Shown here: positions 19,014 through 58,742 of the stretch, piece by piece | Numbering within the stretch: position 1 is the first letter of the stretch | Layout of the letters: every line of letters begins with the position of its first letter | Assembly: GCF_036634175.1 (NCBI RefSeq) | Contig: NZ_JAZIFX010000001.1 | Coordinates: 8,184,001-8,248,000, forward strand | Direction: 5' to 3' | From: Streptomyces sp. P9-A2 | GTDB taxonomy: Bacteria; Actinomycetota; Actinomycetes; Streptomycetales; Streptomycetaceae | Length of the DNA stretch: 64,000 bases | Position numbers and translations under genes: made by a program | Notes under the pieces: generated by a model | The model's input: only the letters and a program-made list of their open reading frames with translations | Databases searched by the model: none | What the model was told of the DNA's origin: nothing

Positions 19014-20789
19014 GACTCCGTTGGGAAATCCGCATAGCGGCGATAACGAGTCGTCCGGGCTGCGATGCTCGGTCTGTTCGTCGATCGAGGGTGGGGCTGG
19101 ATGTCGTTGGAGTCGTGGGCGGATCGCGGGGTGCCGGAGCTGACCGCGCGGGTGGTGCGGGCTTCGTTCCCGAAGGGGACGTTGGCGGTCCGCATCCGTG
19201 AGGCGCTTGGTCCGCTGTTCGAGGACGAGTCCTTTGCGAAGGCGTTTCCCTCGCGGGGGCGGCCGGCGGTCTCGCCCGGGGCGCTGGCGTTGGTGTCGGT
19301 GCTGCAGTACGCCGAGAAGCTCACCGACCGGCAGGCCGCTGACCAGGTCCGGGCCCGGATGGACTGGAAGTTCCTCCTTGGCCTGGAGCTGGACGACCCG
19401 GGGTTCGATTTCTCGGTGCTCAGCGGCTTCCGCGCCCGGCTGGCGGAGCACGGTATGGAGGAGAAGGTCCTGGACCTGGTCCTGGAACGGATCTCCGCGC
19501 TCGGGCTCCTGCGCGCGGGCGGACGGCAGCGGACCGACTCCACGCATGTGCTGGCCACGGTACGGACGCTGAACCGGATGGAGTTTGTCGGCGAGACCCT
19601 GCGCGCGGCCCTGGAGGCCCTGGCGGCAGCAGCGCCACAGTGGCTGTCCTCGCTGGTCAACGCCGATTGGGTCAAGCGCTACGGTGCGCGGGTCGACTCC
19701 TACCGCTTCCCCAAGGGTGACAACGTCCGCCAGGAGTGGGCCGAGCAGGTCGGCCGGGACGGCTTCACCGTCCTGGGGGCGGTCTTCGCACCCGACGTGC
19801 CGGGCTGGCTGCGGGAGGTCCCGGCCGTCCAGGTCCTGCGCCGGGCCTGGGTGGAGCAGTACCACCGCGACGGCGAGGGGGTGCGCCGGCGGGAGGGCAA
19901 GGATCTCCCGCCGGGCAGAGAACGCCTGTCCTCGCCCTACGACACCGACGCCCGCTACGGGACCAAGTGCGGCTCGGGCTGGTGCGGCTACAGGACCCAC
20001 CTGAGCGAGACCTGCGATCCGGGCACCCCGCATCTGATCACCCACGTGGCCACCACCGACGCGACGGTCACGGACACCGAAATGACCGAGGCTGTCCACC
20101 AGGGCCTGGCCGCACGGGAGTTACTGCCAGGCGAGCACGCGGTGGACGCCGGCTACGTCACCGCCGCCCACATCGTCACCGCCCGCGACGAGCACGGGAT
20201 CGACCTGCTCGGCCCCGTCGGAGCGGACACGGTCCATGAGCGCCACGAGGGCGAGCACATCCCCCAGAGCGCCTTCGCCGTCGACTGGGACGCGAGGAAG
20301 GTCACCTGCCCGCAGGGAGCGGTCAGCATCAGCTGGTCCGACCAGCGCAAAGCCAGCGGTACCCCGATCACCCGGGTGCACTTCGCGCTCCAGGACTGCA
20401 ATCCATGCCCGGCCCGAGCCCAGTGCACCAAGGCCGCGAACGGCAAATACGGCCGCAGCCTGACACTTCTGCCCCGCAAGCAGCAGCAGATCCTGGAACA
20501 GCGACGCATCGATCAGCAGACCGAGGAATGGAAGGTCCGCTACGACGTCCGGGCAGGCGTCGAGGGCACCATCTCGCAAGCGGTACGAAGCACCGGTATC
20601 CGCCGCACCCGCTACACCGGGCTGCCCAAGACCCACCTCGGTAACGTACTTGCCGCCACCGCGATCAACCTCATCCGCCTCGACACCTGGCTCAACGGCA
20701 CACCCCTCGGCCAGACCCGCACCTCACACCTGGCCGCACTCGACCTGGCAGCCTGGCCCCAGCCGCTATGCGGATTTCCCAACGGAGTC
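19014..20789 (+). mobile_element. IS1182-family insertion sequence, copy A
   Basis: Terminal inverted repeats of 28 bp match perfectly: 19014-19041 (GACTCCGTTGGGAAATCCGC...) and 20762-20789. It lies in the loop of the IS605 terminal hairpin. No clear target duplication is visible. Confidence 0.85.
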
Positions 20790-20825
20790 CTGAAGGTGGT
20801 GGAGGAGTCACAACCTCATGCTTGA
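19101..20825 (+). CDS. IS1182-family transposase, copy A
   Basis: The family N-terminus MSLESWADRGVPELTARVVR sets the start at ATG 19101 (an in-frame ATG at 19065 is possible), giving 574 residues. Recognisable features are SPGALALVSVLQYAEKLTDR, the first catalytic Asp in [14 protein letters not shown], a second in EHAVDAGYVTAAHI, and the cysteine cluster DCNPCPARAQC. The C-terminal EEWKVRYDVRAGVEGTISQA contains the likely catalytic Glu. The frame has no stop inside the inverted repeats: it reads through the right end and stops at 20825 in host IS605 sequence, so termination is borrowed from the target. Confidence 0.9.
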   Translation: MSLESWADRGVPELTARVVRASFPKGTLAVRIREALGPLFEDESFAKAFPSRGRPAVSPGALALVSVLQYAEKLTDRQAADQVRARMDWKFLLGLELDDPGFDFSVLSGFRARLAEHGMEEKVLDLVLERISALGLLRAGGRQRTDSTHVLATVRTLNRMEFVGETLRAALEALAAAAPQWLSSLVNADWVKRYGARVDSYRFPKGDNVRQEWAEQVGRDGFTVLGAVFAPDVPGWLREVPAVQVLRRAWVEQYHRDGEGVRRREGKDLPPGRERLSSPYDTDARYGTKCGSGWCGYRTHLSETCDPGTPHLITHVATTDATVTDTEMTEAVHQGLAARELLPGEHAVDAGYVTAAHIVTARDEHGIDLLGPVGADTVHERHEGEHIPQSAFAVDWDARKVTCPQGAVSISWSDQRKASGTPITRVHFALQDCNPCPARAQCTKAANGKYGRSLTLLPRKQQQILEQRRIDQQTEEWKVRYDVRAGVEGTISQAVRSTGIRRTRYTGLPKTHLGNVLAATAINLIRLDTWLNGTPLGQTRTSHLAALDLAAWPQPLCGFPNGVLKVVEESQPHA

Positions 20826-22672: not shown

Positions 22673-23123
22673 GGCCTTCGTACGACAGAGGCCGACGCGG
22701 AGGACACCACTCACCGACCTTCAAAGCGTGGTGCCGGAGGGCCGGCGGCCCATGATCCCTGCGGTATGCCGAGTGCATGGGGTACGCGCAGGGCGGCGGG
22801 CCGGCATGCGGCCGACGACAAGAAGAAAACGCGAAACGTCCACGTTCTGGCGCGTCCTGCACCGGGTGCGCTGAGCGGCGTTCTGGCGGGTTTCTCCGTA
22901 CGCGCCGTCGCAGAGTCGCTCCCGGCCCGAGTACGCCCGCGACCCGGCCCGGACCAGGTGATCGGAAGTATGGCGATCGACCGCGTACCCGCCGCCGTGA
23001 AGCCGGTGGCGCCCGGTGTCTCTCTCACGGGATGCCGGGCGGTGGAATGTGTCGCTAGATGGAGGGAGGGCTTCGTACCGTCCGAACGACGAACAAATGT
23101 GCAGGGAAAGGTGGGGACACGGC
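22673..23123. other. Gap upstream of aldo/keto reductase
   Basis: About 450 bases without a recognisable gene. It probably contains the reductase promoter near 23040-23100. Confidence 0.4.
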
Positions 23124-24113
<990 letters not shown>

Positions 24114-24195
24114 GGGCTGTTCCAGGTTCGGATCACTGGTTTCCGGATTCGCCGGTGTGCGGGAGGCCGGGCCTGGTGGTTGTCGGGGGCGGCGC

Positions 24196-24345
24196 GTGGT
24201 GATCTCTCGGATGCCGAGTGGGAGTCGGCCGAGCCGTTCTTGCCGGTGGGTGAGCGCGGTCCGATCCCTGACCCGCGGCGGCAGCTCAACGGCGCGATGC
24301 GGCGGTTCAGACCCAAAGGCCCGTGGCGTGACGTGCCGGAGGAAG
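24196..24345 (+). pseudogene. IS5-family transposase N-terminal fragment
   Basis: The translation DLSDAEWESAEPFLPVGERG followed by RQLNGAMRRFRPKGPWRDVPEE matches the DUF4096 start of IS5-type transposases (LSDAEW..IEPLLP....GRP..D.R...NG...R.G.PWRDVPE). It stops abruptly after the PWRDVPE segment and joins the end of a broken SDR gene. The catalytic domain is absent. Confidence 0.7.
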
Positions 24346-24347
24346 CG

Positions 24348-24770
24348 TCAGGTGCTGAAGCCGCCGTCGGCCGTGATGGTGGCTCCGGTGATGAAAGCGG
24401 CGCCGGGACTGGCCAGGTACGTGACGAGACCGGCGATCTCGGACGCGGTTCCGTAGCGGCCCAGGGGAGTGGCCGGGAGCATCGTGGCGGCCGCCGGGCC
24501 GCCGGGCCATCGGCCGGATTGAGGTCGGTGTCGACGGCGCCGGGTCGGATGATGTTGACGGTGGTTACCCGTGGAGCCAGTTCCCGGGCGAGTGAGCGGG
24601 TGAGGCCCGCCAGAGCTGCCTTGGTCGTGACGTATCCGATCATGCCGCCCAAGAGGGCGCGGTCGGCGAAGACGCTACCGGTGGTGATGACACGTCCTCC
24701 TGGGAGCATGTGTTTGGCCGCTTCCTGGATGGCTGCGAACGTGCCACGGACGTTCACCTGGTACATCCGG
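24348..24770 (-). pseudogene. Short-chain dehydrogenase/reductase, 5'-truncated and frameshifted
   Basis: On the minus strand from about 24770 the reading is YQVNVRGTFAAIQEAAKHML, then VITTGSVFADRALLGGMIGY-VTTK (the YxxxK catalytic pair) and LARELAPRVTTVNIIRPGAV. After DTDLNPADGPAA the frame shifts (about 24500). It continues as ATMLPATPLGRYGTASEIAG, LVTYLASPGAAFITGATI and TADGGFST with a stop at 24348, the standard SDR C-terminus. The NAD-binding N-terminal half is missing beyond 24770, and the IS5 fragment abuts the 3' end. This is a decayed gene. Confidence 0.75.
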
Positions 24771-25294
24771 GGTGAAGCCCCAAGCCAGTGAGCATGATCT
24801 TGCGGCGTACGTTCTGCGCGGTGGGCGGTCGGCGAGAGGCATTTGCGTGGCTGGCCACATAAGAGTGGCACGCGTTAAGTGGCCAGCCAAGTATTGCCTT
24901 GAGGGCCGCTGCCGCCATCTGGGTGCAGGCGCACGAAGTCCCCCTGGGTGGCCCTTGTGGCCGGCACCGCTGATCATGAGAGCCGGGGTGGCGGGCTTTC
25001 TCGCCTCGCGAGCCGCCGAGACGCGTGAGCCGGTCGTGCGGGGAGGGTGTCGGTGACGCCCGTCTCGGAGGAGCGGTGGCGTCCTGGCTCGGACTCGCTC
25101 CGCCGGTGTCGAGGCGGTCCCACGGTCCGGACCCTCTCTGCCAAAACAGGTCGGGTCGGGCGTACTGCGTGATTCTTTGAGTCGAGGGCGGAGAAGGAGT
25201 AGTGCCCGGGTGGCCAGGGGGCATGGAACCGTGCGGTTGCCGTGCCCCTGTGCGGGCAGAACACCTGCGCTTCTCGGCCTTGGTGCTGAGGCCG
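24771..25294. other. Boundary region downstream of the diamino-acid cluster
   Basis: About 520 bases with no recognisable gene on either strand. It separates the truncated SDR from the last gene of the biosynthetic operon and probably holds a recombination junction. Confidence 0.4.
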
Positions 25295-26347
25295 TTACCG
25301 CCGCCGTCGCCGGTTTGCGGGCGGGTGTGGTGGGAGGCTCCCCTGGAGTGTGGGCACGGGGCCGGCTGCCCAAGGACCGTCAGTCGTTTCATCGGAGTCG
25401 AGCAGGTCCTCGCCGTAAAGATCGTGCAGCCAGTTGGATTGGTAAATGGTGTCGAGATAGCGCTCGCCGAGATCCGGGGCGATGGCCACCGCGGTGAGTT
25501 CACGCGTGTCATGGTCGTGCAGCCAACGCATCGCGCCGCTGACGACCGTGCCGGTGGAGCCGCCGAAGAGGAATCCGCGTTTGGCCAGGCGATGGCACGC
25601 GCGGATGGTGTCCGTCTCCTCGACGCGTATCACCTCGTCCACGTAGGACTCGTCGAGTAGCGGTGGAGGCATGCTCATGCCGAGCCCGGGTATCATGCGG
25701 CGGCCAGGCGTACCACCGAAGGTCACCGAACCGACGCTGTCCACCGCGACGATCCGTACAGGCCGGTGCCATTGGCGGAAGTAGCGTGCGCAGCCCATCA
25801 GAGTTCCGGTGGTGCCGGCGCCGACGAACAGTACGTCCAGGTGCGGGAAGTGCTGGGCGATCTCCGGCGCCGTCTTGCGGTAGTGCGCCTTCCAGTTGTT
25901 CGGATTGGTGTACTGACTGAGCCACACGTACCGGTCATCGGAATCGCACAGCGCACGGACGTAGTCGATCCGCGCGCCCAGGAAGCCGCTTTTCGCGTCC
26001 AAGCCGGCGATGGTGTGCACCCGGCTGCCCAGTGCCTCCATCAGGAGTCTGGTCGACAGGTTGCAGCGGGAGTCCGTCACGCACAGAAACCGGTAGCCCT
26101 TGCTCGCCGCGATCATGCTCAGCGCTACGCCGAGGTTGCCGGACGAGGACTCGACCAGGATCGAATCCGGCTTGAGGTCTCCGTCTCGCTCGGCGGTCTC
26201 CACCATCTCGGTTGCGGCCTTCAGCTTGATCGAGCCGGCGAAGTTGAAGCCCTCACACTTCAGGAACAGGGAGTGCCCGAAGATGGGCTCGAGGTCGACA
26301 TAGAGCTGGGACTCGTTGAAGGCGTAGGGAACGGATATGACGGGCAC
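25295..26347 (-). CDS. sbnA: SbnA-like N-(2-amino-2-carboxyethyl)-L-glutamate synthase (PLP enzyme)
   Basis: GTG 26347 follows GAGGAGGAGG; the protein has 350 residues. It belongs to the cysteine-synthase fold: the PLP lysine is K41 in FNFAGSIKLKAA, the substrate loop is VESSSGNLGVALSMIAAS, and the phosphate-binding loop is FVGAGTTGTLMG. PGLGMSMPPPLLDESYVDEV and FGGSTGTVVSGAM are as in SbnA of staphyloferrin B synthesis. That enzyme joins O-phosphoserine and glutamate as the first step to L-2,3-diaminopropionate. The last ~25 residues are Pro/Arg-rich and may be extra. It is the last gene of the minus-strand operon, 41 bases behind its partner SbnB. Confidence 0.88.
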   Translation of the reverse strand: MPVISVPYAFNESQLYVDLEPIFGHSLFLKCEGFNFAGSIKLKAATEMVETAERDGDLKPDSILVESSSGNLGVALSMIAASKGYRFLCVTDSRCNLSTRLLMEALGSRVHTIAGLDAKSGFLGARIDYVRALCDSDDRYVWLSQYTNPNNWKAHYRKTAPEIAQHFPHLDVLFVGAGTTGTLMGCARYFRQWHRPVRIVAVDSVGSVTFGGTPGRRMIPGLGMSMPPPLLDESYVDEVIRVEETDTIRACHRLAKRGFLFGGSTGTVVSGAMRWLHDHDTRELTAVAIAPDLGERYLDTIYQSNWLHDLYGEDLLDSDETTDGPWAAGPVPTLQGSLPPHPPANRRRRR

Positions 26348-26388
26348 GACGGCCTCCTCCTCATCTGCGGCAGGGCACTCTCGGACGG

Positions 26389-27459
26389 TTATCCGTAGCG
26401 GCGCAGTTCGTGGAAGAAGTCGTCGACGACGTGCAGTTTTCCTGAGCGGGCCGTTTCGTCGTAGACGTACTTGCCGACCGCGAGGTCGAGCACCCCGAGG
26501 CCGAAGGGTGAAAACACCACAGGTCGGCCCGTCGGCACTGTCACCCGCCCGGCCATCACGTCGTCCAACGTGCCCTGCAGGAAGTCCCGGTTGCCCGTGA
26601 GCTGCTCGGCCAGATGCGGCGAGGTGTCAGCCTTCAGACAGTGCTCGACGTCGTCCACGATGTTGGTCGAGGCGAGAACGATCTCCGGCGCGAGGTCGCG
26701 CAGGGACACGTGCAGAACCACGGGATTGTGCGAGAACCACGTAGGGTCGCTGACGTGCGGCTCACTGGCGACGGTGGCGAAGACCACCAGGTCGCTGCCA
26801 CGGATCAGCTCCTCGGCGCTGTGGTGCACCACGATCCGGCCGGTGGTGCCCGACTGCTCGAGGTAGCGGCGGAACCCTGCCGCGCTGTCGGCGGACAGGT
26901 CGTGTACGCCTGTCTCGTCGAACGACCAGCCGTTGCCGGCCAGGAACGTGTGGATGTAGCGGGCGATCAGGCCCGTCCCGAAGAACCCGACGCGCGTGGG
27001 CCGTGGCCGGTCCCGGCTGAGCCGATCCGCGGCCAACACCGCGGACGCGGCCGTCCTGGTGGCGCTGATGATGGAACTCTCCAGACAGGCGAACGGGTAA
27101 CCGGTCTCCTGGTCGTTGAGGATCAGCACGGCGGACGCCCTCGGGATGCCGGCTTGAACGTTCTCCGGGAAACTGGAGATCCACTTTACGCCGTCCACCC
27201 GTACGTGCCCGCCGATCGAGGCCGGCAGCGCGATGATCCGGGAGGTCGGGCGGTCGGGGAAACGCAGGAAGTACGACGGTGGGTTCACCGAGTCACCGGC
27301 GCCGTGCAGCCGGTAGATGGACTCGGCCAACTCGACGATCTGCTTCTCGCGCCCCTCCAACACCTGCTGGACCTGGGCACCGGAGATCACCGCGAAGGGT
27401 CGCACGGTGTGCGGTTCACTTGTTGCGGACGCCGTCACGGTGGTGGGGACGCTGGTCAT
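26389..27459 (-). CDS. sbnB: SbnB-like 2,3-diaminopropionate-forming dehydrogenase (ornithine cyclodeaminase family)
   Basis: ATG 27459 overlaps the stop of the dioxygenase gene (ATGA); the protein has 356 residues. The family signs are FAVISGAQVQQVLEGRE, HVRVDGVKWISSFPENVQAG, LILNDQETGYPFACLE, the Rossmann motif VGFFGTGLIARYIHTFL and VVLHVSLRDLAPEIVLAS. SbnB oxidatively splits the SbnA product to L-2,3-diaminopropionate and 2-oxoglutarate, using NAD. The sbnA/sbnB pair is a reliable marker for a pathway needing diaminopropionate (Dap). Its placement in one operon with an NRPS assigns Dap as precursor. Confidence 0.9.
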   Translation of the reverse strand: MTSVPTTVTASATSEPHTVRPFAVISGAQVQQVLEGREKQIVELAESIYRLHGAGDSVNPPSYFLRFPDRPTSRIIALPASIGGHVRVDGVKWISSFPENVQAGIPRASAVLILNDQETGYPFACLESSIISATRTAASAVLAADRLSRDRPRPTRVGFFGTGLIARYIHTFLAGNGWSFDETGVHDLSADSAAGFRRYLEQSGTTGRIVVHHSAEELIRGSDLVVFATVASEPHVSDPTWFSHNPVVLHVSLRDLAPEIVLASTNIVDDVEHCLKADTSPHLAEQLTGNRDFLQGTLDDVMAGRVTVPTGRPVVFSPFGLGVLDLAVGKYVYDETARSGKLHVVDDFFHELRRYG

Positions 27460-28463
27460 CGGGCGGTCACCTCGAAGGTCGGCGAGCAGTCGGACAGTCG
27501 CACCGGGTCGGCCATCGCGACGAGCACGTCGCGCGGTCCCTCGAAGGGCTCCCGGCTGTGCGCGGTGCGTAGGTTGTCGACGATCATCAGATCGCCGGGC
27601 TGCCACGGCTCGCGTGCGGTGTTGGCCTCGTAGATCTTGTTGAGCAGTTGCACCACGTCCTCGCCGATCGGGTCGCCGCTTCCGAAACGGGTGTTGAACG
27701 GCAGTCCGTCGGCGCCGTAGACCTCGACGAGGTACTCACGGACCTCGGGGGCCAGTGTCCACTCGTTGAGGAACGCGACCTGATTGAACCAGCAGCGCAG
27801 CCCGTTGACCGGATGACGTATCACGGCGTTGCGGCGCTGCCTGGTGCGCAGGGCCCCGTCGGGTTGCCATGCGAACTCGATCGCGTTGGCTCGGCAATAA
27901 TTCTCGACAGCGCCCCGCTCATCGGTGCCGAACGCCTCGATGAGGGACGACCCGATCTCGTCGTTGTAGCTTCGGGTGAGCAGCCAACCCTCCCGCTCGA
28001 ACCGCTCGGTCAACGCGGCGGGCAGTTCCTCGAGCACGGTCGCCGCGTCGGCCACTCCGGTCGCCCCGCCCTGGTGGGGCGCAGTGAGGCAGACGAACAG
28101 CATCAGGCCGGGGACCTCGAGCGCGTAGCTCTGTTCATGATGCATGCACATCGGCTGGCTCGGCGGCCACTGCGCCGAGGAGTACACACCGTCGGCATAG
28201 ATCCGCCGGGGTGCGAAGGCCTCCCTCTCGGCCATCAGCCTGGTGCTCAGCTGCTCGAAGACGGCACTGGCCCCGGCCACATCGCGCAGCCCGAGGCCGC
28301 GGATCAGGACGCAGCCATGCTCGGCGACGACGGCGCGCAGCGCCTCTCGGTGCTCGGCTGTCCAGCGCGTCGCGTCGCTGGTGATCTCGGCCCGCACTAT
28401 CGGAGGTCGGCCAGATCGGATTTCGACCTCGTCGAGCAGCGGCGCCGGGTATATGGAGGACAT
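27456..28463 (-). CDS. TauD/TfdA (SyrP-like) Fe(II)/2-oxoglutarate dioxygenase
   Basis: ATG 28463 follows GAAAGGAAAACAG; the protein has 335 residues. The Fe-binding HxE is in CMHHEQSYALEVPG and the distal His in LRTAHSREPFEGPRDVLVAM. The N-terminal VVAEHGCVLIRGLGLRDVAG and RCWFNQVAFLNEW fit the SyrP-like branch that beta-hydroxylates amino acids, often while carrier-bound. The gene lies between the NRPS (36 bases) and sbnB (4-base overlap). The likely job is therefore hydroxylation of Dap or of the carrier-bound residue. The substrate is inferred from context only. Its 2-oxoglutarate could come from the SbnB reaction. Confidence 0.82.
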   Translation of the reverse strand: MSSIYPAPLLDEVEIRSGRPPIVRAEITSDATRWTAEHREALRAVVAEHGCVLIRGLGLRDVAGASAVFEQLSTRLMAEREAFAPRRIYADGVYSSAQWPPSQPMCMHHEQSYALEVPGLMLFVCLTAPHQGGATGVADAATVLEELPAALTERFEREGWLLTRSYNDEIGSSLIEAFGTDERGAVENYCRANAIEFAWQPDGALRTRQRRNAVIRHPVNGLRCWFNQVAFLNEWTLAPEVREYLVEVYGADGLPFNTRFGSGDPIGEDVVQLLNKIYEANTAREPWQPGDLMIVDNLRTAHSREPFEGPRDVLVAMADPVRLSDCSPTFEVTAR

Positions 28464-28499
28464 CCTGTTTTCCTTTCAGTGTGCAGCTGTGTGTGCCGC

Positions 28500-31400
28500 T
28501 CAGGAAGCAGGCGGTGGTTCGGCGGTGCGCAGCACGGCCTGCGCTGTCTCGGACGGACGGCTGCGCAGGAAGTAGTGGCCACCCTCGGCGAGTTCCTGCA
28601 GGTCGACGTGGACCGAAAGGAACTCCCAGTCGCGGTGGCGTCGAGGGTGATCAGCTGTGATCGGATCGTCGGTGGCGACGACCACGGTGACCGGCACGGA
28701 CAACTTCACCGCCGGGGGAGTGTCCAGGAGATCTGCGAAATAGCGGTGTGCGGACACGCAGTCGTGCCGGTAGGCCGCACCGATGTGCTCGGCGCGCTGC
28801 GCATCCAGCTCATGGAGCTCGGCGTAGCCGCTGTCCGCACTCAGCTTCGCGGCGATCTCGGCGTCGCTCAACCCGGTCAGCTCAGTGACGGCGTCGCGCC
28901 GGTCAGCGGCGTTGCCGAGCAACTGCGCGCCGATGAAGACCCGTTGGACTCCCACCCCGCGATCTTCCAGCTGCCTGGCCGTCTCCACGGCGAAAGCCGC
29001 TCCCGACGAGTGCCCCCACAACAGGACTCCACGCAGGCCACATTCGGTGATCTCGGCGACGACCTGAGCAACCACATCTGCCATCGACGCGAAAAGCTCG
29101 CTCTCGGCGGCCACGTCATGGCCGGGCAGCTCAACGGCGTAGACCGCGATCCCACTGCCCTGCAGCGCCTTGGCCATCGGCTGGTAGTTCACCGCGTTGC
29201 CGCCGGCGTAGGGGAAGCACACCAGGGCACCGGTCGGCGCACCGGCCGGTTCGCACAGCGACTGAAGCAGCCCGGAACGCCGATCGGCCCTGCCGTCGAC
29301 CAGCGCGGCCAGATCGGCGAGGACCGGATGCCGGGTCACGTCCTTGAGCGACACCGCGCGGTCCATGGCGATCACCAGTTGTACAGCTGACAGCGATGTG
29401 CCGCCTCGGTCGAAGAAATGGGCCCGTCCATCGATCTGATCCCGCGGGATGCCGAGCACCTCGGCCCAAGCGGCCGCCAGCCGCTGCTCGGTCGGCGTCC
29501 CCGGCACGTGGGTGCCCTTTTCGTCGTCTTCGACGACGTCCGGTTCCTCCACGAGTGCTGCCAGTGCCCTCTTGTCGGTCTTGCCGTTGGCGGTCAGCGG
29601 CAGCCTCTCCCGCCAGTGGAAGGCCGACGGCACCATGTACTCCGGCAGCGACTCACCCAGCCGGTTCCGCAGGTCCTCGACGGGAAGCGACGTCGGACCG
29701 GAGCAGAAGGCCACAAGGTGCTTGCTCCGGTCGGGCCGCTCGACGACCACCACCGCCCCGTCTCGGACGCCGGGGACCTGCAGCAGGGTGTTCTCGATCT
29801 CGCCGATCTCGATCCTGAAGCCACGGATCTTGACCTGGGTGTCGCGACGTCCGAGGAACTCCAGCTTGCCCTCGGGCAGCCAACGGCCGCGGTCGCCACT
29901 GCGGTAGAGCCGGGCTCCCTCGCGGTGCGGATCGGGCATGAAGGCCTGCTTGGTGCGGTCGGGGTCGTTGACGTATCCACGGCCGACGCAGACACCGGAG
30001 AAGACGATCTCGCCGGGGGCGCCGAGCGGCACCGGCGACAGGTGCTCGTCGACGACGTAGACGTGCACATTGCTGACGGGGGGACCGAGTGGGACCCGTT
30101 CGCGGTCCGGTACCCGGTCCAGGACCTCGTGGTTGGTGTCGTCGCAGGTCTCGGTCAAGCCGTAGGCGTTGACCAGCTTGATGCCGGGCTCGGCCGCGAA
30201 CCAGCGCTGCGTGAGCTCCTTCTTCAACGCCTCACCGGTGACAGACACGCACCGCAGGCCGGGCAGCTCGCGCGGGTGCTGCTCCAGATACGTCAGGACG
30301 ACTTCGAGGTACGACGGCACGACCTGGAGCACGGCGGCCCGACCGCGGGCGATCCTGTCGACGAACCGCTGGACGTCCAGGACCACCTCCTGCTCGACCA
30401 GCAGGGTCTGCCCGCCCACCAGGAGGGCGGACAACAGTTGCCACAGCGAAATGTCGAAGCACTGCGGGGCGGTCTGGGCGACGACCTGTCCCTCGCCGAC
30501 GTCGAGTTCCAGGTCCTCGATCTTGGCGTAGAGGTGGTTGAGCATGCCCGCGTGTTCGCACATCGCGCCCTTGGGCTCTCCGGTAGAGCCGGAGGTGAAG
30601 TAGATGTAGGCGAGTTGGTCCGGTGTGACGGTGATGCCCAGGTCGTCGTCGCGACCGCCCTCGTCGTAGGCCGTGCCGATGAAGAGCTTCCGGACTCCTG
30701 GTAGCGAGTCCAGGGCCTGGTCGAGCGATTCGGTGCTTCCGGGTTCGGTGAGCACGAGCCCGCACTCGGCGCGGGAGAGCATGGCCGCGATGCGATCGGC
30801 CGGGAAGCGCGGCTCAGCGGGCAGGTACACGCCTCCGGCCTTGAAGACCGCGAGGACGGCGGCCATCCAGTCCAGGTTTCTCTCGGTCACCACCGCGACG
30901 ACACCTTCGCGTCGCAGCCCTCGCGCCAACAGGGCTCGTGCCAGCTGATTGGCACGAGCGTTGAGCTCCTGGTAGGTCCACTCCCGGTCGCCGTGCACGG
31001 CCGCGACGGAATTCGGGTGCAGCCTCACCCGCTGTTCGAACAGTTCGTGCATCCGGGCGTCCGGCAGGGTACGGCGCGGTCCGGACAGTCCTTCGAGCTG
31101 GAACCGGAGTTCCTCGTCGGAAAGCAGACTCTGCCGTGCGTGCTCGGTATCCGGATCCGCTGCGATGAGCGCGAGCGCGGTGAGGTGGTACCCGGTGATC
31201 CTGGCGGCGTAGTCCGCGTCGAGTACGTCGGTCCGGTACCGCAATCGCAGCGTGGGCCGGCCGTTGGGCTCCGAGAGCGCCATCCACAGCACGGTGTCTC
31301 CGGCGAGATCGTCGGTGACGCCCGTCGCGCAGGGACCGAAGGCCGGATTCGGATCGAGGACGGTCTCGACCGATGGTTCGGTGAGGTCCAACTCGTGCCT

Positions 31401-31790
31401 GAGTTCGTCGACCGGAAAGTCCTTGTGCGACAGCAGTTCCGACGCGACGCGATGGGTGTCGACCAGGAGCGCCCGCCATGATGTCGGTGCGGTCGTCAGC
31501 CGGCAGGGCAACGGTCGGCCGCCCTCCTCTGCGACGTAGCCGGTCGTGACCTCGTGCTCGCCTGACAGCGCGGCGAGTACCTTGGCGTGCGCGGCCAGCA
31601 TCACGGAGTCGAGAGGCATCGTGAGATCCTTCGCCAACCGGCGCAAGGCGTTCATGACGTCGTCCGAGATCGTGGCCTCGTGCTCGGCAACGCCCGTCAT
31701 CGGACGGAGTGTCCACCGAGGGATCGTGGTGGATCCGCCGGTGACGAGCACACTGCGCCAGAATTCCTGGTCCGCCACTCGCGTTGCCAT
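28500..31790 (-). CDS. Single-module NRPS: half condensation - adenylation - PCP - type II-like thioesterase
   Basis: The protein has 1096 residues. Residues 1-235 match only the C-terminal half of a condensation domain; no HHxxxDG is present. The A domain (about 245-745) has FTSGSTGEPKG at 399-409 and GRRDTQVKIRGFRIEIGEIE. Specificity residues D446, I447, W450, Q489, S516, T518, A542, D550, D551 and K737 read DIWQSTADDK, of the diaminobutyrate/diaminopropionate kind. The PCP has FFDRGGTSLSAVQL (Ser799). The thioesterase has PYAGG at 860-864, GHSSG at 926-930 and His1072; the PYAGG start is typical of type II editing thioesterases. The sbnAB neighbours make Dap the expected substrate. Confidence 0.9.
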   Translation of the reverse strand: MATRVADQEFWRSVLVTGGSTTIPRWTLRPMTGVAEHEATISDDVMNALRRLAKDLTMPLDSVMLAAHAKVLAALSGEHEVTTGYVAEEGGRPLPCRLTTAPTSWRALLVDTHRVASELLSHKDFPVDELRHELDLTEPSVETVLDPNPAFGPCATGVTDDLAGDTVLWMALSEPNGRPTLRLRYRTDVLDADYAARITGYHLTALALIAADPDTEHARQSLLSDEELRFQLEGLSGPRRTLPDARMHELFEQRVRLHPNSVAAVHGDREWTYQELNARANQLARALLARGLRREGVVAVVTERNLDWMAAVLAVFKAGGVYLPAEPRFPADRIAAMLSRAECGLVLTEPGSTESLDQALDSLPGVRKLFIGTAYDEGGRDDDLGITVTPDQLAYIYFTSGSTGEPKGAMCEHAGMLNHLYAKIEDLELDVGEGQVVAQTAPQCFDISLWQLLSALLVGGQTLLVEQEVVLDVQRFVDRIARGRAAVLQVVPSYLEVVLTYLEQHPRELPGLRCVSVTGEALKKELTQRWFAAEPGIKLVNAYGLTETCDDTNHEVLDRVPDRERVPLGPPVSNVHVYVVDEHLSPVPLGAPGEIVFSGVCVGRGYVNDPDRTKQAFMPDPHREGARLYRSGDRGRWLPEGKLEFLGRRDTQVKIRGFRIEIGEIENTLLQVPGVRDGAVVVVERPDRSKHLVAFCSGPTSLPVEDLRNRLGESLPEYMVPSAFHWRERLPLTANGKTDKRALAALVEEPDVVEDDEKGTHVPGTPTEQRLAAAWAEVLGIPRDQIDGRAHFFDRGGTSLSAVQLVIAMDRAVSLKDVTRHPVLADLAALVDGRADRRSGLLQSLCEPAGAPTGALVCFPYAGGNAVNYQPMAKALQGSGIAVYAVELPGHDVAAESELFASMADVVAQVVAEITECGLRGVLLWGHSSGAAFAVETARQLEDRGVGVQRVFIGAQLLGNAADRRDAVTELTGLSDAEIAAKLSADSGYAELHELDAQRAEHIGAAYRHDCVSAHRYFADLLDTPPAVKLSVPVTVVVATDDPITADHPRRHRDWEFLSVHVDLQELAEGGHYFLRSRPSETAQAVLRTAEPPPAS

Positions 31791-31922
31791 CGATCAGTCC
31801 CTCTCCACTCGCCGTGGCCACCCTGTCTGTCGCCGCCGACCAGACCGGCTCCTCTGTCGTCGTTGGTGTCGGCAGACCGGGCTGTCCGGCCGGTCTGCCG
31901 GCCTGACCAAGGTGGTCCTGTG

Positions 31923-34493
31923 CTACCCCTGCCGCGCCGGTGCCGGCGGCTGACCGGGGGCATCGCTCATCTCTGTGGCTGGGTTGCCACCCCACCGCGC
32001 GTTCTGCGGGACTTCCTCGCCCTTCATGAGAAAGGAGTCGGGTGCAAGTACTGAGCCGTCACCCATCGTCACTCCGTAGTGGACGTGGGAGCCGACACCG
32101 AGGGTGCATCCGTCTCCTATCGTGCTGCGGTCGGACTTGAAGGTGCCGTCCTCCTGAGAGTGGCATTGGATCTTGCTCCCCGCATTGAGAGTGCAGTCGT
32201 TCCCGATGGTGGTGAGCATCCGCTCCGTCAGATAGCAGCCATCGTCAAAGATCCTGCTGCCCAGCCGAACACCCAGGAGCCGCCAGATCACGTTCTTGAA
32301 GGGGGTGCCGTTGAAGATGTTGAGGTATTCGTCAGGAACCTTCCACAGACGCTCGTGCCACCAGAAATACGGGTCGTAGATGGAGCACACCTGCGGTCGC
32401 AGCCCGCGGAAAGCCACGATGGCACGCTCCACCAGTACGAAATAGAGGGGGGCGAATGCCAGAGTGACCACCAGGAATGCCGCGATCGCCACATATCCGA
32501 AGGATCCGTACAGTTCGACATCTGCGAGGGCGAGTACCGTGACGACGAAGAGGAAAAACCACCGTACGAGTAGGAAGAGGACCATCGACCGGATATTGAA
32601 GCGGTTCTTGGCAGCGAGGTTGCGGTGCAACTCGGCCCCGGCCCGCATGTGGTCGAACCGCAGGTCGCGCTCCACCGACCGGGGAATCTCGAAGCACGGC
32701 GAGCCGAGCAGACCCACTCCCTCGCGTACCTCGCCATCGAGTGGAACCATCACCTTCGTTGCGAGGAGACAGTTGTCGCCCGTCTTCGCTCCAGACGGAT
32801 ACGCGATGTTGTTCCCGAGGAAATTGTGCCGCCCGATCGACGCATGGGACACCCGGAAAGACGTGCTCGAAAAGTCGGCATTGACGATCGAAAGGCCGTC
32901 AGCGATCATTGTGCTGCTGCCGACAGAGCACAGATACGGGGTCTCGTGCTGTACTTCCGTGCCGAAGTTGGATCCGGTTTGCTCCACCTGGGACAGGTCG
33001 TACCCAAGGCCACGCAGATAGTGGACGATGTAGGAGCTGTCGCCGAAGAGCCAGGTGAAGAACTTCACGTTGGTGATGCGTGCGATCGCCCGGTGCATTG
33101 AGTAATGAAAGCCGTACAGTGGATATACCTTGCCCGGCTTGACGAACAAATTCAACAGGCGCGGCACGGTGAACAGAACGAAGATGCCCACAACGACGAA
33201 GCTGAAGAATAGAATGCAGGAAACGATCAGCGCGTCGACATAGAGCTCAGACGACACGAGCCCTGCCCCGCCCTGTTCCAGCCGGCCGTTGAGCGACGGG
33301 ACTTCTGTCAACAGTATGTACAGGCCCCCGACGGCCAACGGCACGGAGAGAAAGAACAGCTGACCCACTGTGGCGAGGCCGAAGCCGACCCGCCGCAAAG
33401 TGCCGCACCTGGCCGGCGGGATCCGCACATAGTCGAGCTCAGTGCGCTGAGCCGGAGATCCGTGCCACCGCTGGTCGCCGGGGACCGCCTGGTGGCTGTG
33501 CAGTGATGACGCATGACCGAGCTGCGCTCCGTCGCCCATCGACGTGGCAATGTCGAGCACGGTCTTCTCACCGATGAAAACGTTCCGGCCAAGAGTGACC
33601 GGGCCCGTCTGAATACGGCCGGCGTGCGCCCGGTAGCAAAGGAAGAACGACTCCTTGCGGATCACTGTACCGGCGCCGATCGTGAGCAGGTCGGTGCAGA
33701 CCGGAACGTTGCGCGAGAGGATCGTGACATCTGTGCCGATGCGTGCGCCGAGTGCCCGTAGATAGAGCACATAAAGGGGATTGCCGACGAAGAGGACCAT
33801 TGGGTTGGCGTGGAGTAGCACCTTGACGGTCCAGAAGCGCAGATAAGTCAGACCCCAGACCGGGAACGCGCGCTCTTTCCACCGGCCGATAAGGATCCAT
33901 TTGGCCACGATCGGGAAAGTGCACATGCCGAGGAATCCGGCACCGCCGAAGATGACCGATCGCAGGTAGATGTCCGTCACATTCGAGCCGGCGGATATCC
34001 AAGCATAACCATGTGCGGCGAGAATTGCAGCGAGGAAAGAATATCCTAGGAAAAGCAGGAACTGTAGCGTTCCGCAGAGGATGTACTGCAGCGTACCGAT
34101 TGGAGTCACGGCCTCCGAGGATGCTGGGTCCGGCGGGCTGACGGGGGCGGCTGTGACAGCGATACCGGTTCCGGCATCGGTGAGCGCCGCCGCCAGGCTG
34201 CGGATCGTCCGGTAGCGGTAGATGTCCTTTATCGACACTGACGGCAGATCCGCCCGCTTCCTGACGCGTGCACAGAATTGCGCCATCACCAATGAATTAG
34301 CGCCGAGGTCATCGAAGAAATTACTGTCGACCGGCACCTGCTCGATGTGCAGGACGCCGGCGAGTATCTCGGCGAGATCCCTTTCCGCGTCTGTCGACAG
34401 GCTGTTTTCTTTCGATGGGCTGTGCGTCCTGTGCTTGGTTGCTCCAGATTCATCCGGCAAGGTCGTCAGGGACTCCGCAGACTTCTTCAGCAT
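31923..34493 (-). CDS. Pls-like membrane synthetase lacking the adenylation domain (PCP - TM - LbH)
   Basis: AAGGAG precedes ATG 34493; the protein has 856 residues. A carrier domain is clear (VPVDSNFFDDLGANSLVMAQ, Ser67; then IYRYRTIRSLAAAL). Then come about six transmembrane helices (from LQYILCGTLQFLLFLGYSF) alternating with three soluble domains rich in hexapeptide turns (ARIGTDVTILSRN, GVTMGDGSVLAPDS). This is the order of epsilon-poly-lysine synthetase (Pls) after its A domain, which catalyses iterative amide formation on the membrane. No A domain is present, so activation must come in trans, presumably from the adjacent NRPS. Codon use in the membrane part is more AT-rich than in neighbours, suggesting acquisition. 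Confidence 0.85.
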   Translation of the reverse strand: MLKKSAESLTTLPDESGATKHRTHSPSKENSLSTDAERDLAEILAGVLHIEQVPVDSNFFDDLGANSLVMAQFCARVRKRADLPSVSIKDIYRYRTIRSLAAALTDAGTGIAVTAAPVSPPDPASSEAVTPIGTLQYILCGTLQFLLFLGYSFLAAILAAHGYAWISAGSNVTDIYLRSVIFGGAGFLGMCTFPIVAKWILIGRWKERAFPVWGLTYLRFWTVKVLLHANPMVLFVGNPLYVLYLRALGARIGTDVTILSRNVPVCTDLLTIGAGTVIRKESFFLCYRAHAGRIQTGPVTLGRNVFIGEKTVLDIATSMGDGAQLGHASSLHSHQAVPGDQRWHGSPAQRTELDYVRIPPARCGTLRRVGFGLATVGQLFFLSVPLAVGGLYILLTEVPSLNGRLEQGGAGLVSSELYVDALIVSCILFFSFVVVGIFVLFTVPRLLNLFVKPGKVYPLYGFHYSMHRAIARITNVKFFTWLFGDSSYIVHYLRGLGYDLSQVEQTGSNFGTEVQHETPYLCSVGSSTMIADGLSIVNADFSSTSFRVSHASIGRHNFLGNNIAYPSGAKTGDNCLLATKVMVPLDGEVREGVGLLGSPCFEIPRSVERDLRFDHMRAGAELHRNLAAKNRFNIRSMVLFLLVRWFFLFVVTVLALADVELYGSFGYVAIAAFLVVTLAFAPLYFVLVERAIVAFRGLRPQVCSIYDPYFWWHERLWKVPDEYLNIFNGTPFKNVIWRLLGVRLGSRIFDDGCYLTERMLTTIGNDCTLNAGSKIQCHSQEDGTFKSDRSTIGDGCTLGVGSHVHYGVTMGDGSVLAPDSFLMKGEEVPQNARWGGNPATEMSDAPGQPPAPARQG

Positions 34494-44272: not shown

Positions 44273-44508
44273 AGAGTCCCCCATATCCCCTGCGGGGACG
44301 CCTCACAGGCGTGAAAATGGGCCGTGGTGGCCGCCCGTCGACGTCGCTCCCTCTTTGGGACAGTGAGCCCGGGACAGAGTCTGGCGCCGGGGCCGGCCGG
44401 AGGGGTCGCGCACTGTCGCCTTCGAGCACGCCGTTCAGATTCTCGTTTCCCCTCACGGCCCTGCGGGTGGCTGCCGCCCGGCGGGTCCGTGTGAGGGAGG
44501 GGACGTGG
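44273..44508 (+). ncRNA. IS110 leader, candidate bridge-RNA region
   Basis: IS110 elements encode a structured bridge RNA in the non-coding end upstream of the transposase. This 236-base leader before the IS110 gene has short hairpins (for example ACGCCT-CAC-AGGCGT near 44298-44312 and CCCCTGCGGGG). No target- or donor-binding loops could be verified by eye, so this is a positional prediction. Confidence 0.3.
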
Positions 44509-45861
44509 ATGGACGAGTCCGAGGTGGTCGACCAGACAGCGGAACTGGTGGAGCGAGTCGCCGCGATCGATGTGGCCAAGGCATCCGGGATGCTGTGCCT
44601 GCGTCTGCCGCACGAAAGGATCGAGGGACGCCGCACCCAGCGGGTGCGGAACGTGGGGGCGACCACGAACGCCATTCTGGAACTGGGCGATCACCTGCTC
44701 TGCCAGGGTGTCACCCGGGTGGTCATGGAGGCGACGGGCAGCTACTGGAAGCCGTGGTTCTACCTCCTCGAAGCCCGCGGCCTGGAGTGCCGGCTGGTCA
44801 ACGCCCGCGACGTCAAGAACGTCCCGGGCCGCCCCAAGACCGACAAACTCGACGCGGTGTGGCTGTGCAAGCTCGCCGAACGGGGTATGCTCCGGCCTTC
44901 CTTCGTGCCGCCCAAACCCATCCGGGAACTGCGCGACCTGACCCGGCTCCGCTCGGTCTTCATCGGCGAACGCAGCCGTAACAGGCAGCGCATCGAGAAG
45001 GTGCTGGAGGACGCGCAGATCAAACTCTCGTCGGTGGCCACCAACCTCTTCGGCGTCTCGGGACGCGCCGTGCTGGAGGCGCTGATCGGTGGGGAGCGAA
45101 GCCCCCGGGCACTGGCCGGTCTGGCCCGTGGCCGGCTGGTCTCCAAGCACGATGCGCTGGTGGAGGCGCTGACCGGCCAGTTCGACGATCACCGTGCCTA
45201 CCTGTGCCGGCTGCTGCTGGACACCATCGACCGGATCACCGTCCAGGTGGACGAGCTGTCGCAGCGGATCACCGCCCAGCTCGCCGGGATCCGTCTGCCG
45301 GAGGCGGACGGGGGCACAGGCCGGCCGCGCGGCGCCCCGGGCGGGACCGGCGAGGTGGACCTGTTGTCGCTGGTCGAGCGTCTGGACGAGATCCCCGGGA
45401 TCGGCCGGACCGCTGCCGAGGTGATCGTTGCCGAACTCGGCCCGGACATGAGGGTCTTGCCGACCTCCGGTCACCTGGTGTCGTGGGCCAAGCTCGCACC
45501 TCGCACGATCCAGTCCGGCGGCAAGAACACCTCGGGGCCCACCGGGCACGGCAACCCGTGGCTCAAGGGGATGATCGGGGAAGCGGCGATGGCCGCGGCC
45601 CGGACCGACACCTTCCTCGGAGCCCGCTACCGCAGACTCGTCAAACACCGGGGACACAAGAAGGCCATCGTCGCGGTGGCCCGGTCGATGCTGGTGATCG
45701 TCTGGCACATCATCAACGATCCCGCCGCCCGCTTCGAAGACCTCGGGCCCGACCACCACCAATGCCTGGTCAACCCCGTCCGCAAGACCCAGGCCCTCGT
45801 CCGCCAGCTCCAGGCCCTCGGCCACCAGGTCACCCTCACCCCCGTGGAAACTGCGGGCTGA
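44509..45861 (+). CDS. IS110-family transposase
   Basis: GAGGGAGGGG precedes ATG 44509 (MDESEVVDQTAELVERVAAI); the protein has 450 residues. The RuvC-like DEDD motif is AAIDVAKASGML, RVVMEATGSYWKPW and GRPKTDKLDAVWL (two Asp). The C-terminal transposase_20 domain is LDEIPGIGRTAAEVIVAELG with a nearby SWAKLAPRTIQSGGKN, in which the catalytic Ser region lies. Length and order are normal. It appears intact. It sits between an IS3 remnant and the tail of a recombinase gene. Confidence 0.92.
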   Translation: MDESEVVDQTAELVERVAAIDVAKASGMLCLRLPHERIEGRRTQRVRNVGATTNAILELGDHLLCQGVTRVVMEATGSYWKPWFYLLEARGLECRLVNARDVKNVPGRPKTDKLDAVWLCKLAERGMLRPSFVPPKPIRELRDLTRLRSVFIGERSRNRQRIEKVLEDAQIKLSSVATNLFGVSGRAVLEALIGGERSPRALAGLARGRLVSKHDALVEALTGQFDDHRAYLCRLLLDTIDRITVQVDELSQRITAQLAGIRLPEADGGTGRPRGAPGGTGEVDLLSLVERLDEIPGIGRTAAEVIVAELGPDMRVLPTSGHLVSWAKLAPRTIQSGGKNTSGPTGHGNPWLKGMIGEAAMAAARTDTFLGARYRRLVKHRGHKKAIVAVARSMLVIVWHIINDPAARFEDLGPDHHQCLVNPVRKTQALVRQLQALGHQVTLTPVETAG

Positions 45862-56918: not shown

Positions 56919-58742
56919 TTCTGTCGGGGATCTTGGAGTTTCCCGGTGCGCCACCATGATCAGCGGGCATGCTCGGGGCTGTTTCGAAGATCGATCCAGT
57001 TGTTGAGGTGTCTGTTGTCACTCCGTCTCCGTTCCGGTGAGCAAGTCCCGTCTCTGACCGCGCAGATCGCGCGGGCGAGCAATCCGGGCGGTACGACGGC
57101 GATGTGGGTGAGAGACCGCCTTGATGGGCTGTGGCACGACGAGGACTTCGCGGGCTGGTACCCGCGTGACGGCCGTCCCGGTCTATCGCCCGCCCAGCTC
57201 GCCACCGTCTGCGTCCTGCAGTTCCTGCTGAACTTGTCGGACCGGCAGGCGGCGGAAGCGGTCCGCTGCCGCATCGACTTCAAATACGCCCTGGCCATGG
57301 AGCTGGACGATCCCGGCTTCCACCACAGTGTGCTGGCCGACTTCCGCGAGCGCCTCACCCAGAACGACCGCGCCGACCGTCTTCTCGACCTCGCGCTCGC
57401 GCGCCTGAAGGAAGCCGGACTCGTACGCGAGCGCACAACGCAGCGCACCGACTCCACCCACGTCCTGGCCGCGGTGCGTGACCTGACCCGGCTGGAACTG
57501 GTCACCGAGGCGGTCCGTGCCGTGCTGGAGGAAGTGGCCCGCACCGCATCACACCTGCTGACCGGCCTGGTCGACGAGGACTGGGGACTGCGCTACGGCC
57601 GCCCGGTCCGGCTGGGCAAGAACCCCACCCGGCCCAAGACCAGGATCCTCGCCGCCGGCAATGATGCCTGCCGGCTGCTGGAACTCATCCATCAGCACGG
57701 ACCGGACCGGTTCGGCCCACAGGCCGAGGCGCTGCGACGGATCGTCGTGCAGAACTACTACCGCGACGCGGCAGGGCGCCTGCGCTGGCGCACCGCCGAC
57801 GACGGTGGCCTGCCGCCCTCTGCCTCGGCGATCGTCTCGCCCTACGACACCACGGCGCGATATGTCCGCCACGGACACATCATCCGCTGGAAGGGGTTCG
57901 CCGCGCACGTCACCGAAACGTGCGCCTCCGACAGCGCCAACGTGATCACGGACGTGGCCACCACGTCGGCCGCCACGAACGACGGCCAGGCCCTGCCCGG
58001 CATCCACACGCGCCTGGCGCATCGCGGGCTGCTGCCCGCCGAGTACCTAGTCGACGGCGGCTACACCTCCCTGGTCCACCTGGAACAGGCCGCCCGGGAA
58101 CACCAGGTCACCGTCACTGGGCCGCTGCCGGGCAACCCCACCCGTCAGCACCGCAAGAACGAAGGCTTCGACCGGGACGACTTCCACATCGACTTCGACC
58201 GCCGACAGGTCACCTGCCCCCGAGGCCAGGTCAGCCAGGGCTGGCACGGCCCCTACCCGACGTCCTCGCCCACCGCGGCACCTCTGATCGTGGCACGGTT
58301 CACCAAGAGCCAGTGCCGGCCCTGTCCGGACCGCCCCCGGTGCACCAGCTCCCGCGAGAGCGCCCGGAACGTCGGCTTTCCCCCGCGAGAACTCCGCGAC
58401 CTGCAAGTCCGCGTCCGCGCGGAGCAGCAGACACCCGAGTGGAAAGCCCGCTACGCAGTCCGTTCCGGAGTAGAGGGCACCATCAACGAGTTCGCCCACG
58501 GACACGGCATGCGCCGCTGCCGCTACCGAGGACAGCCGAAAGCCCACCTGCAGCACGTACTTACAGCCATTGCCGTGAACATCGAACGACTCAGCAGCCA
58601 GTCAGCGGCCGAGGAAGCATCGTCACCGAGACCACCGACCGCTTTCATGACCTTCCTGGACCATAACGGCCTGCCCCGGCCGAAGTCCTGGCGAACCCTC
58701 GGAACCTGAGCCCGACCCACCAAGATCCCCGACAGAGTCAAG
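56914..58742 (+). mobile_element. IS1182-family element, copy B, with CTTGG target duplication
   Basis: Inverted repeats CTTGATTCTGTCGGGGATCT... (56914 on) and the complement ending at 58742 differ by one base in 23. CTTGG flanks both sides (56909-56913 and 58743-58747). Removing the element and one CTTGG restores ALLEMISEGAD of the IS3 orfA. Confidence 0.87.
56946..58709 (+). CDS. IS1182-family transposase, copy B
   Basis: GTG 56946 gives 587 residues. It shows [39 protein letters not shown], the Asp motif [37 protein letters not shown] with the second Asp, the Cys cluster [12 protein letters not shown], and the Glu region [20 protein letters not shown]. It is the same family as copy A but clearly different in sequence, so it was a separate acquisition. 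The stop lies inside the element, unlike copy A. It appears intact. Confidence 0.92.

Follow-up and report, generated by a model that had tools for sequence, protein, structure and literature searches.

How a Pls-type polymerase without an adenylation (A) domain might obtain its monomer, and what it then makes, is the question raised by a five-gene cassette on the minus strand (34493 to 25295) of the window, the 64,000-nucleotide stretch of Streptomyces sp. P9-A2 DNA analysed here. A first-pass annotation had listed five same-strand genes joined by overlaps or short gaps, and all five are present on that strand, in the order Pls-like, NRPS, TauD, SbnB and SbnA. Gene content, domains, conservation, phylogeny and fusions form the basis of a model that relates the cassette to the cationic homopoly-amino-acid synthetases as a split, trans-loaded form, fed with 2,3-diaminopropionate (Dap), oxidising its monomer on a carrier and yielding an isopeptide product; we place the probability of this model at about 0.68. 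On this best reading, the Pls/PosA-type cationic homopoly-amino-acid synthetases are the known part of the system and the split, trans-loaded Dap variant is what is added here; no description of this split cassette was found in the literature searched.

The Pls-like gene (31923..34493, minus strand), whose ATG at 34493 has AAGGAGC just 5′ of it, encodes a Pls/PosA-family protein of 856 aa made up of a carrier and three TM-hairpin/left-handed beta-helix (LbH) units. Its earlier description as a Pls layout without an adenylation domain holds, as the protein scores 856.7 bits against the NCBIfam profile TIGR02353 (cut-off 423.1), and the Pfam domain search returned PP-binding and hexapeptide-repeat matches and no AMP-binding match. 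The carrier (PCP, Pfam PP-binding; 34167..34397, minus strand) contains Ser67 in GANSLV, unchanged across alignments of 15 and of 30 proteins, and lies directly N-terminal of the terminal region, so that what follows it, in place of a canonical condensation domain, is the TM/LbH polymerase-type region (31971..34094, minus strand) equivalent to C1-C3 of Pls. The protein has 7 hydrophobic segments and keeps most near-invariant residues of the A-containing family members. Its AlphaFold model (mean pLDDT 64.8) shows long helices in three pairs, with an LbH-like stretch after each pair, the third LbH being of low confidence, and a sequence search of solved structures matched carrier and hexapeptide fragments only, with none covering the whole TM/LbH region.

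The neighbouring NRPS gene (28500..31790, minus strand) encodes 1096 aa, with Pfam matches to AMP-binding, PP-binding, Thioesterase and, weakly, Condensation. Of the ‘half C-A-PCP-TE’ organization first proposed for it, the A domain (29580..31040), the PCP (29298..29486; Pfam PP-binding and the motif GGTSL) and the thioesterase (TE; 28557..29225; Pfam, GHSSG), all on the minus strand, stand, whereas the ‘half C’ is corrected to a C-terminal condensation-domain lobe (C′; 31086..31775, minus strand), which by Pfam matches positions 193-279 of the Condensation profile, below the cut-off. With only this lobe present and HHxxxD absent, C′ cannot be a normal condensation domain, and a working C domain in this NRPS is thus ruled out. 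Neither TE nor C′ can be an essential part, as TE is frequently, and C′ sometimes, absent from relatives' cassettes (samples described below). Of the 73 full named loci, 15 have a C′ that is short or undetected and 18 have no TE match over 150 aa. Of the 46 sampled cassette loci, 4 have a short C′ and 25 are without a TE match over 150 aa at 45% identity (22 with no match, 2 short and 1 at 31%).

The 10-residue code of the A domain, DIWQSTADDK, is by contrast conserved across relatives. In a first sample it occurs in 76 rows including the window, with one more row readable at 9 of 10 positions and two further rows broken or cut; in a second, overlapping the first in part through shared strains, it aligns in 50 of 50 sampled loci and the window. 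It is identical at 6 of 10 positions to the Dab code DVWQMIGDDK quoted in PMC12283262, a paper whose own Dap codes are stated to share 80% with Dab codes; a full-text literature search for A codes gave no match. Taken with the SbnAB pair, this code makes Dap probably the substrate activated by the A domain. The domain itself is of the canonical modular-NRPS type (best solved-structure relatives LgrA, 8xjz, Txo2 and PvdL) and about 28-35% identical to Pls-type A domains, and therefore appears recruited rather than split off; simple fission of a Pls gene is ruled out on the same grounds.

Supply of Dap is suggested by the two adjacent genes at the end of the cassette, both above NCBIfam equivalog cut-offs: an SbnA-type PLP enzyme (25295..26347, minus strand; TIGR03945, 388.6 versus 349.95), which is this genome's only TIGR03945 match over the cut-off, and an SbnB-type dehydrogenase (26389..27459, minus strand; TIGR03944, 415.3 versus 326.9). 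SbnB most likely starts at 27459, in an ATGA overlapping the TauD stop, which gives 356 aa; an alternative longer frame with a GTG start would overlap TauD by 151 bases.

The remaining gene (27456..28463, minus strand) encodes a TauD/clavaminate-synthase-like Fe(II)/2-oxoglutarate oxygenase of 335 aa with the TauD fold and the HxD/E...H iron triad (H108-x-E110 and H302). Fold comparison placed At3g21360 first, followed by taurine dioxygenases, AtsK, PlaO1, CarC, Rv0097 and SfaA, that is, a general TauD fold that says nothing about the reaction. If Dap were hydroxylated at its beta carbon, an unstable carbinolamine would result, so that desaturation, oxidative deamination or action on amide-linked Dap is at least as likely as formation of hydroxy-Dap.

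Is this arrangement more than a chance neighbourhood? Of 80 named loci, the best-matching among 194 relatives, 73 again have all five genes (in L075 with broken frames), and this recurrence, together with the invariant A code, places the arrangement far beyond chance. Among 150 sampled Streptomyces genomes, the neighbourhood survey suggested with the original proposal likewise found the full cassette at 46 of 54 A-less loci, where ‘A-less’ denotes a protein 53% or more identical to the window's Pls-like protein whose frame has no A motif within its first 600 residues; none of these 54 relatives has an A motif before the terminal region. Specifically, 117 places matched, of which 101 were covered by the 100 regions read and 16 were left out: the window's own, two fragments in genome G139, and 13 frames of 1317 to 1413 aa judged by their length to be A-containing. 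At the other Pls-family loci, sbnA or sbnB was found near none of 46 within the 20 kb or less that was read. Beyond the cassette, no flanking gene family was common to more than 16 of the 80 loci (with a heuristic choice of ORFs), and no exporter or resistance gene was conserved in these flanks, which counts against the model.

Six named loci without the full set (L029, L052, L055, L063, L080, L085) lie on short contigs or at contig ends, and the seventh, L060, is a true orphan Pls-like gene in an assembly that also has the cassette (at L018). Three of the eight incomplete sampled loci (L169, L172, L188) are likewise at contig ends or on a short contig. Another, L194, keeps Pls, NRPS and SbnA and lacks TauD and SbnB, while L203 pairs Pls and TauD with a different A-domain gene (28% identical), so that neither the oxidation step nor the exact partner A domain is universal, a further point against the model. 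All four A-less copies lacking this NRPS (L195, L197, L201 and L203, the first three completing the eight) lie in genomes that have another copy with it, the NRPS-bearing second copy in G034 (L169) being cut by a contig end. Fusions tie the parts together further: in L193 the A-PCP is fused to TauD, and in L208 PCP-TM-LbH, C′, A, PCP and TauD form a single frame of 2327 aa.

In a quick tree, for which the domain search had shortened six lysine-code rows to 545-603 residues, the A-less proteins fall into a single clade (SH-aLRT 98) within the A-containing synthetases, and the A-containing P0240 is its sister. This nesting suggests a single loss of the A domain as the most likely history, its role being taken over in trans by that of the NRPS. 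The A-containing relatives have DFECLSVVT-type codes; one (L210) is adjoined by an aspartokinase gene and a Dab-transaminase-family gene, and another (P0216) is fused to a class-III aminotransferase. Such neighbours and fusions, on which the assignment of these synthetases as poly-diaminobutyrate-type is based, point to that group as the probable source of the membrane protein. By comparison, the 41 sampled proteins with the lysine-type code DAESIGT..K are about 23-28% identical to the window protein.

In the model that we favour, SbnA and SbnB would make L-Dap, which the NRPS A domain would activate and load onto its own PCP; TauD would then most likely oxidise the PCP-bound aminoacyl group in the manner of a SyrP-like oxygenase, an action to which the PCP-TauD fusions of L193 and L208 point only indirectly. 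Ser67 of the A-less carrier could be charged by the same A domain or receive its residue from the PCP of the NRPS, and charging by a different A domain is also conceivable; the membrane LbH units would link the residues by isopeptide bonds into an oligomer or polymer made on or across the membrane. The first-pass annotation had proposed a split Dap synthetase, and trans service by the NRPS A domain and a Dap monomer gain support from conservation, the invariant code, the clade and the fusions, while a multi-unit product is our prediction from the family. It had also asked whether a partner A domain lies elsewhere; within this genome no other A domain exceeds 41% identity to the one in P0240, the nearest A-containing relative, the best being sited in multimodular NRPSs, and no free-standing Pls-type A domain was found. 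More tentatively, and at somewhat less than even odds, such cassettes may make bacterial isopeptide polymers of oxidised Dap, a widespread class whose machine, rebuilt around a recruited NRPS A domain, gave up its own A domain to allow oxidation of the monomer on a separate carrier ahead of polymerisation.

Several rival readings overlap in part, and their odds do not sum to one. It is conceivable, if unlikely, that the cassette makes unmodified poly-Dap, or a comb-like form of it, with TauD acting elsewhere or late. A two-residue repeat would fit two carriers with one A domain, TauD is missing from L194, and PMC10522769 and PMC9606270 cite a branched, comb-like Dap-Dap polymer from an epsilon-polylysine-producing Streptomyces (Takehara 2021, doi 10.1007/s00253-021-11257-3). 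Yet TauD is present in 48 of 50 sampled loci with this A domain (L172, at a contig end, and L194 excepted), and is fused to a carrier in two genomes. Two carriers served by a single A domain would also suit a two-unit product, and a rather doubtful reading is that the Pls-like protein forms one bond, yielding a Dap dipeptide or short fixed oligomer, or transferring Dap to an acceptor. (The transferred Dap could be oxidised or not, and the acceptor membrane or a small molecule.) The first LbH unit does resemble acyltransferases, and Pls can also esterify its product with alcohols (PMC9606270); against this, all three TM/LbH units and most near-invariant residues are kept as in A-containing members, and the characterised members described in the accounts consulted make oligomers or polymers.

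We consider it improbable that the NRPS, TauD and SbnAB make a modified Dap that is TE-released for use elsewhere, next to an unrelated Pls-like protein served by another A domain. A-PCP-TE with an oxygenase is a known route to free modified amino acids (NikP1/NikQ-type logic), but the five genes stay together where TE is undetected or weak, as tallied above, the L208 fusion joins the supposedly unrelated parts, and this genome offers no free-standing Pls-type A domain. Least probable by far is a siderophore or metallophore cluster of the staphyloferrin B type, from which SbnA and SbnB are best known (PMC3179956): as the conserved unit has no further gene, no siderophore synthetase or uptake gene belongs to it.

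The nearest TM/LbH relatives of the window protein are the poly-Dab-type synthetases (about 50% identity; P0240, 62%), and the same post-A-domain architecture (TIGR02353) occurs in Pls and in PosA of Acinetobacter, all of which, unlike the cassette protein, have their own A domain. We know of no membrane LbH protein in the streptothricin system. That system resembles the cassette in making a diamino-acid isopeptide oligomer with separated A and carrier proteins (ORF19/ORF18), and differs in that a stand-alone A domain extends the chain, as PMC9606270 describes. Trans-loading itself has a precedent in CmnI, an A-less capreomycin module loaded with L-Dap by CmnA-A1 (PMC12400406); there the A-less protein is part of a modular NRPS and has an ordinary condensation domain, whereas here an A-less carrier with a partner-protein A domain, predicted to be Dap-specific, precedes a membrane LbH polymerase. 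Closest in monomer is PDAPs of Streptomyces albulus PD-1 with NjxA/NjxB, for which PMC4668381 likewise describes Dap made by SbnA/SbnB-like enzymes and a carrier, TM and three tandem soluble domains. In PDAPs, however, the A domain is part of the synthetase itself and njxAB lie away from pdaps, while the cassette places its A domain on a separate canonical NRPS, brings sbnAB into the operon and adds TauD.

A split synthetase of this kind would allow activation, tailoring and polymerisation to be studied separately or mixed, which is hard with a one-piece Pls, and the nested phylogeny offers a tangible example in which a polymerase seems to have changed its monomer via a replaced activating partner. 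Outside Streptomyces the A-less Pls-type gene looks rare in a phylum-wide sample of 296 genomes, for which the first look scored 3 candidates per genome only: the window protein gave matches in 5, namely three Streptomyces genomes, G157 and G162. Within the heavily mined genus Streptomyces, at least 47 of the 150 sampled genomes (46 and the window's own) carry it, so that an undescribed product may be common there.

The five-gene cassette occupies 34493 to 25295 on the minus strand and runs from an A-less Pls/PosA-family gene through an NRPS gene, a TauD-family oxygenase gene and sbnB to sbnA. Spacing is tight: 132 bp separate the stop of the Pls-like gene from the start of the NRPS gene, 36 bp lie between NRPS and TauD and 41 bp between sbnB and sbnA, and TauD and sbnB overlap at ATGA. 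TIGR03945 and TIGR02353 each have a single match above cut-off in this genome, both within the cassette. The first-pass annotation had pointed to an A-less Pls-like gene next to sbnAB and an NRPS gene, and this neighbourhood recurs; the observation is real, with support beyond what that reading could know. Specifically, Pls, A domain, TauD, SbnB and SbnA are all present in 73 of the 80 named loci (the best 80 of 194 relatives), a count that includes one locus with broken frames (L075), and six of the seven exceptions lie at contig ends or on short contigs. The full loci include Kutzneria and Prauserella, and Ktedonosporobacter rubrisoli (Chloroflexota) carries all five genes in a different order.

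A less biased sample was drawn from 150 Streptomyces genomes, of which 81 had TIGR02353 matches, and 100 regions were read. Here, 54 A-less loci (at least 53% identity to the window protein, no A motif in the first 600 residues) were found in 46 genomes, 46 of them with the full cassette; the remaining 46 Pls-family loci had neither SbnA nor SbnB within the fetched stretch. Four A-less copies (L195, L197, L201 and L203) lack the cassette-type NRPS, each in a genome with a second copy that has it (one such copy, L169, is interrupted by a contig end), while L194 retains Pls, NRPS and a divergent SbnA, and nothing else of the cassette. L203 (1–6141) may be a variant for another monomer: after its A-less Pls and TauD genes comes an A-domain gene of another kind, at 28% identity, and, by eye, a small carrier-like frame. 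L060, L195, L197 and L201 hold orphan A-less Pls genes: neither an NRPS gene nor sbn genes lie close by, and each of these genomes has a further copy of the cassette. In a shallow first look at 296 genomes drawn phylum-wide, five matched, three of them Streptomyces, and the A-less gene looks rare outside that genus.

Gene content, domains, conservation and lineage are directly supported, and upon these layers a route can be proposed. SbnA and SbnB would make L-Dap, the A domain would activate it and charge the NRPS PCP, TauD would oxidize the unit while on the carrier, Ser67 of the A-less carrier would be charged in trans, and the membrane region would form isopeptide bonds. The 10-residue A code of the window's NRPS, DIWQSTADDK, is shared by 75 named loci in the alignment of the named collection (one more is legible at nine positions and concordant; two are broken or cut) and by 50 of 50 sampled Streptomyces loci. 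It has six of ten positions in common with DVWQMIGDDK, a Dab code that PMC12283262 links to a beta-hydroxyl; that paper puts the identity between its Dap codes and Dab codes at 80%. With SbnA and SbnB encoded in the operon, the substrate is best inferred to be Dap. Trans-loading has precedent in capreomycin assembly, where the A-less carrier CmnI was demonstrated to receive L-Dap from CmnA-A1 (PMC12400406). S. aureus SbnB releases 2-oxoglutarate, the co-substrate of TauD (PMC4668381).

The C-terminal lobe of the condensation domain (C') lacks the catalytic motif in the window NRPS; among the 73 named cassettes it is short or undetected in 15, and among the 46 sampled ones in 4. TE went undetected over 150 aa in 18 named and 25 sampled cassettes (of the latter, 22 matchless, two short and one at 31% identity). 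Each is absent from whole lineages, so the core reaction needs neither; a possible role of TE is editing or recycling of the NRPS carrier. Gene fusions are classical evidence for parts working together. L208 is a single uninterrupted 2327-aa frame comprising carrier-TM-LbH, C', A (code DIWQSTADDK), PCP and TauD, and in L193 a single frame covers A-PCP and TauD; these fusions put TauD beside the carrier. Free-amine Dap hydroxylated at the beta carbon would give a carbinolamine, which breaks down, and for this reason the TauD reaction may equally be a desaturation, a deamination or the hydroxylation of a unit in amide linkage.

In a quick-method tree of 83 TM/LbH regions (SH-aLRT support only), a branch with support 98 sets the A-less proteins, together with the fusion, apart from the rest. 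This group is nested among A-containing ones, and its sister is Kibdelosporangium P0240 (support 100). In P0240 and its relatives the second code position is Phe and the third Glu; DFECLSVVT was read in 115 of 120 proteins among the matches listed, the other five differing at one position. A locus of this group (L210) adjoins aspartate kinase and Dab transaminase-family (TIGR00709 above cut-off) genes, and the 41 lysine-code proteins (DAESIGT..K) are distant from the A-less group. Most simply, a poly-Dab-type synthetase would have lost its A domain a single time and come to be fed instead by an A domain recruited from a modular NRPS, with a supply of Dap. In two metagenomic proteins, P0216 and P0218 (the latter among the matches listed), a Pls-type synthetase is joined to an aminotransferase of class III (Dab-type), named diaminobutyrate--2-oxoglutarate aminotransferase at source in P0216; these are possible one-piece poly-Dab factories. 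L220 encodes a Pls-type synthetase whose code, DFEYFGTVT, is unusual and whose branch in the tree is very long, and it possibly uses another monomer.

The nearest characterized system, PDAPs of S. albulus, differs in having its own A domain and in Dap genes that sit away from the PDAPs gene (PMC4668381). Our full-text search, judged by title, abstract or passages and thus no proof of absence, found no description of A-less Pls with NRPS, SbnAB and oxygenase. Many of these proteins carry the NCBI name 'Pls/PosA family', so the resemblance is already on record; the literature searched showed no discussion of the split. As far as that literature shows, the cassette is a previously undescribed variation on known Pls/PosA-type machinery.

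A sixth conserved gene was sought in the flanks of the 80 loci with a heuristic ORF choice: the best-shared outside family reached at most 16 of 80, and the larger families listed consisted of the cassette's own genes plus one frame that lies antisense to a cassette gene. An aldo/keto reductase gene past the sbnA end (23016–24113, plus strand) was not recognized among these families. Directly downstream of sbnA lies a short-chain dehydrogenase frame (24110–24871, minus strand) whose profile match begins near position 100, probably a remnant. The window spans 8.184–8.248 Mb of a Streptomyces genome of two contigs (8.39 Mb in all), and the cassette surroundings, near the chromosome end, are rich in insertions, including IS110-family transposase and rve integrase genes (44311–45861, 58791–59798). 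DUF772/DDE_Tnp_1_6 transposase genes flank the cassette (19065–20825 and 56946–58709, both plus strand), probably not as a simple composite transposon because they are just 41% identical to each other.
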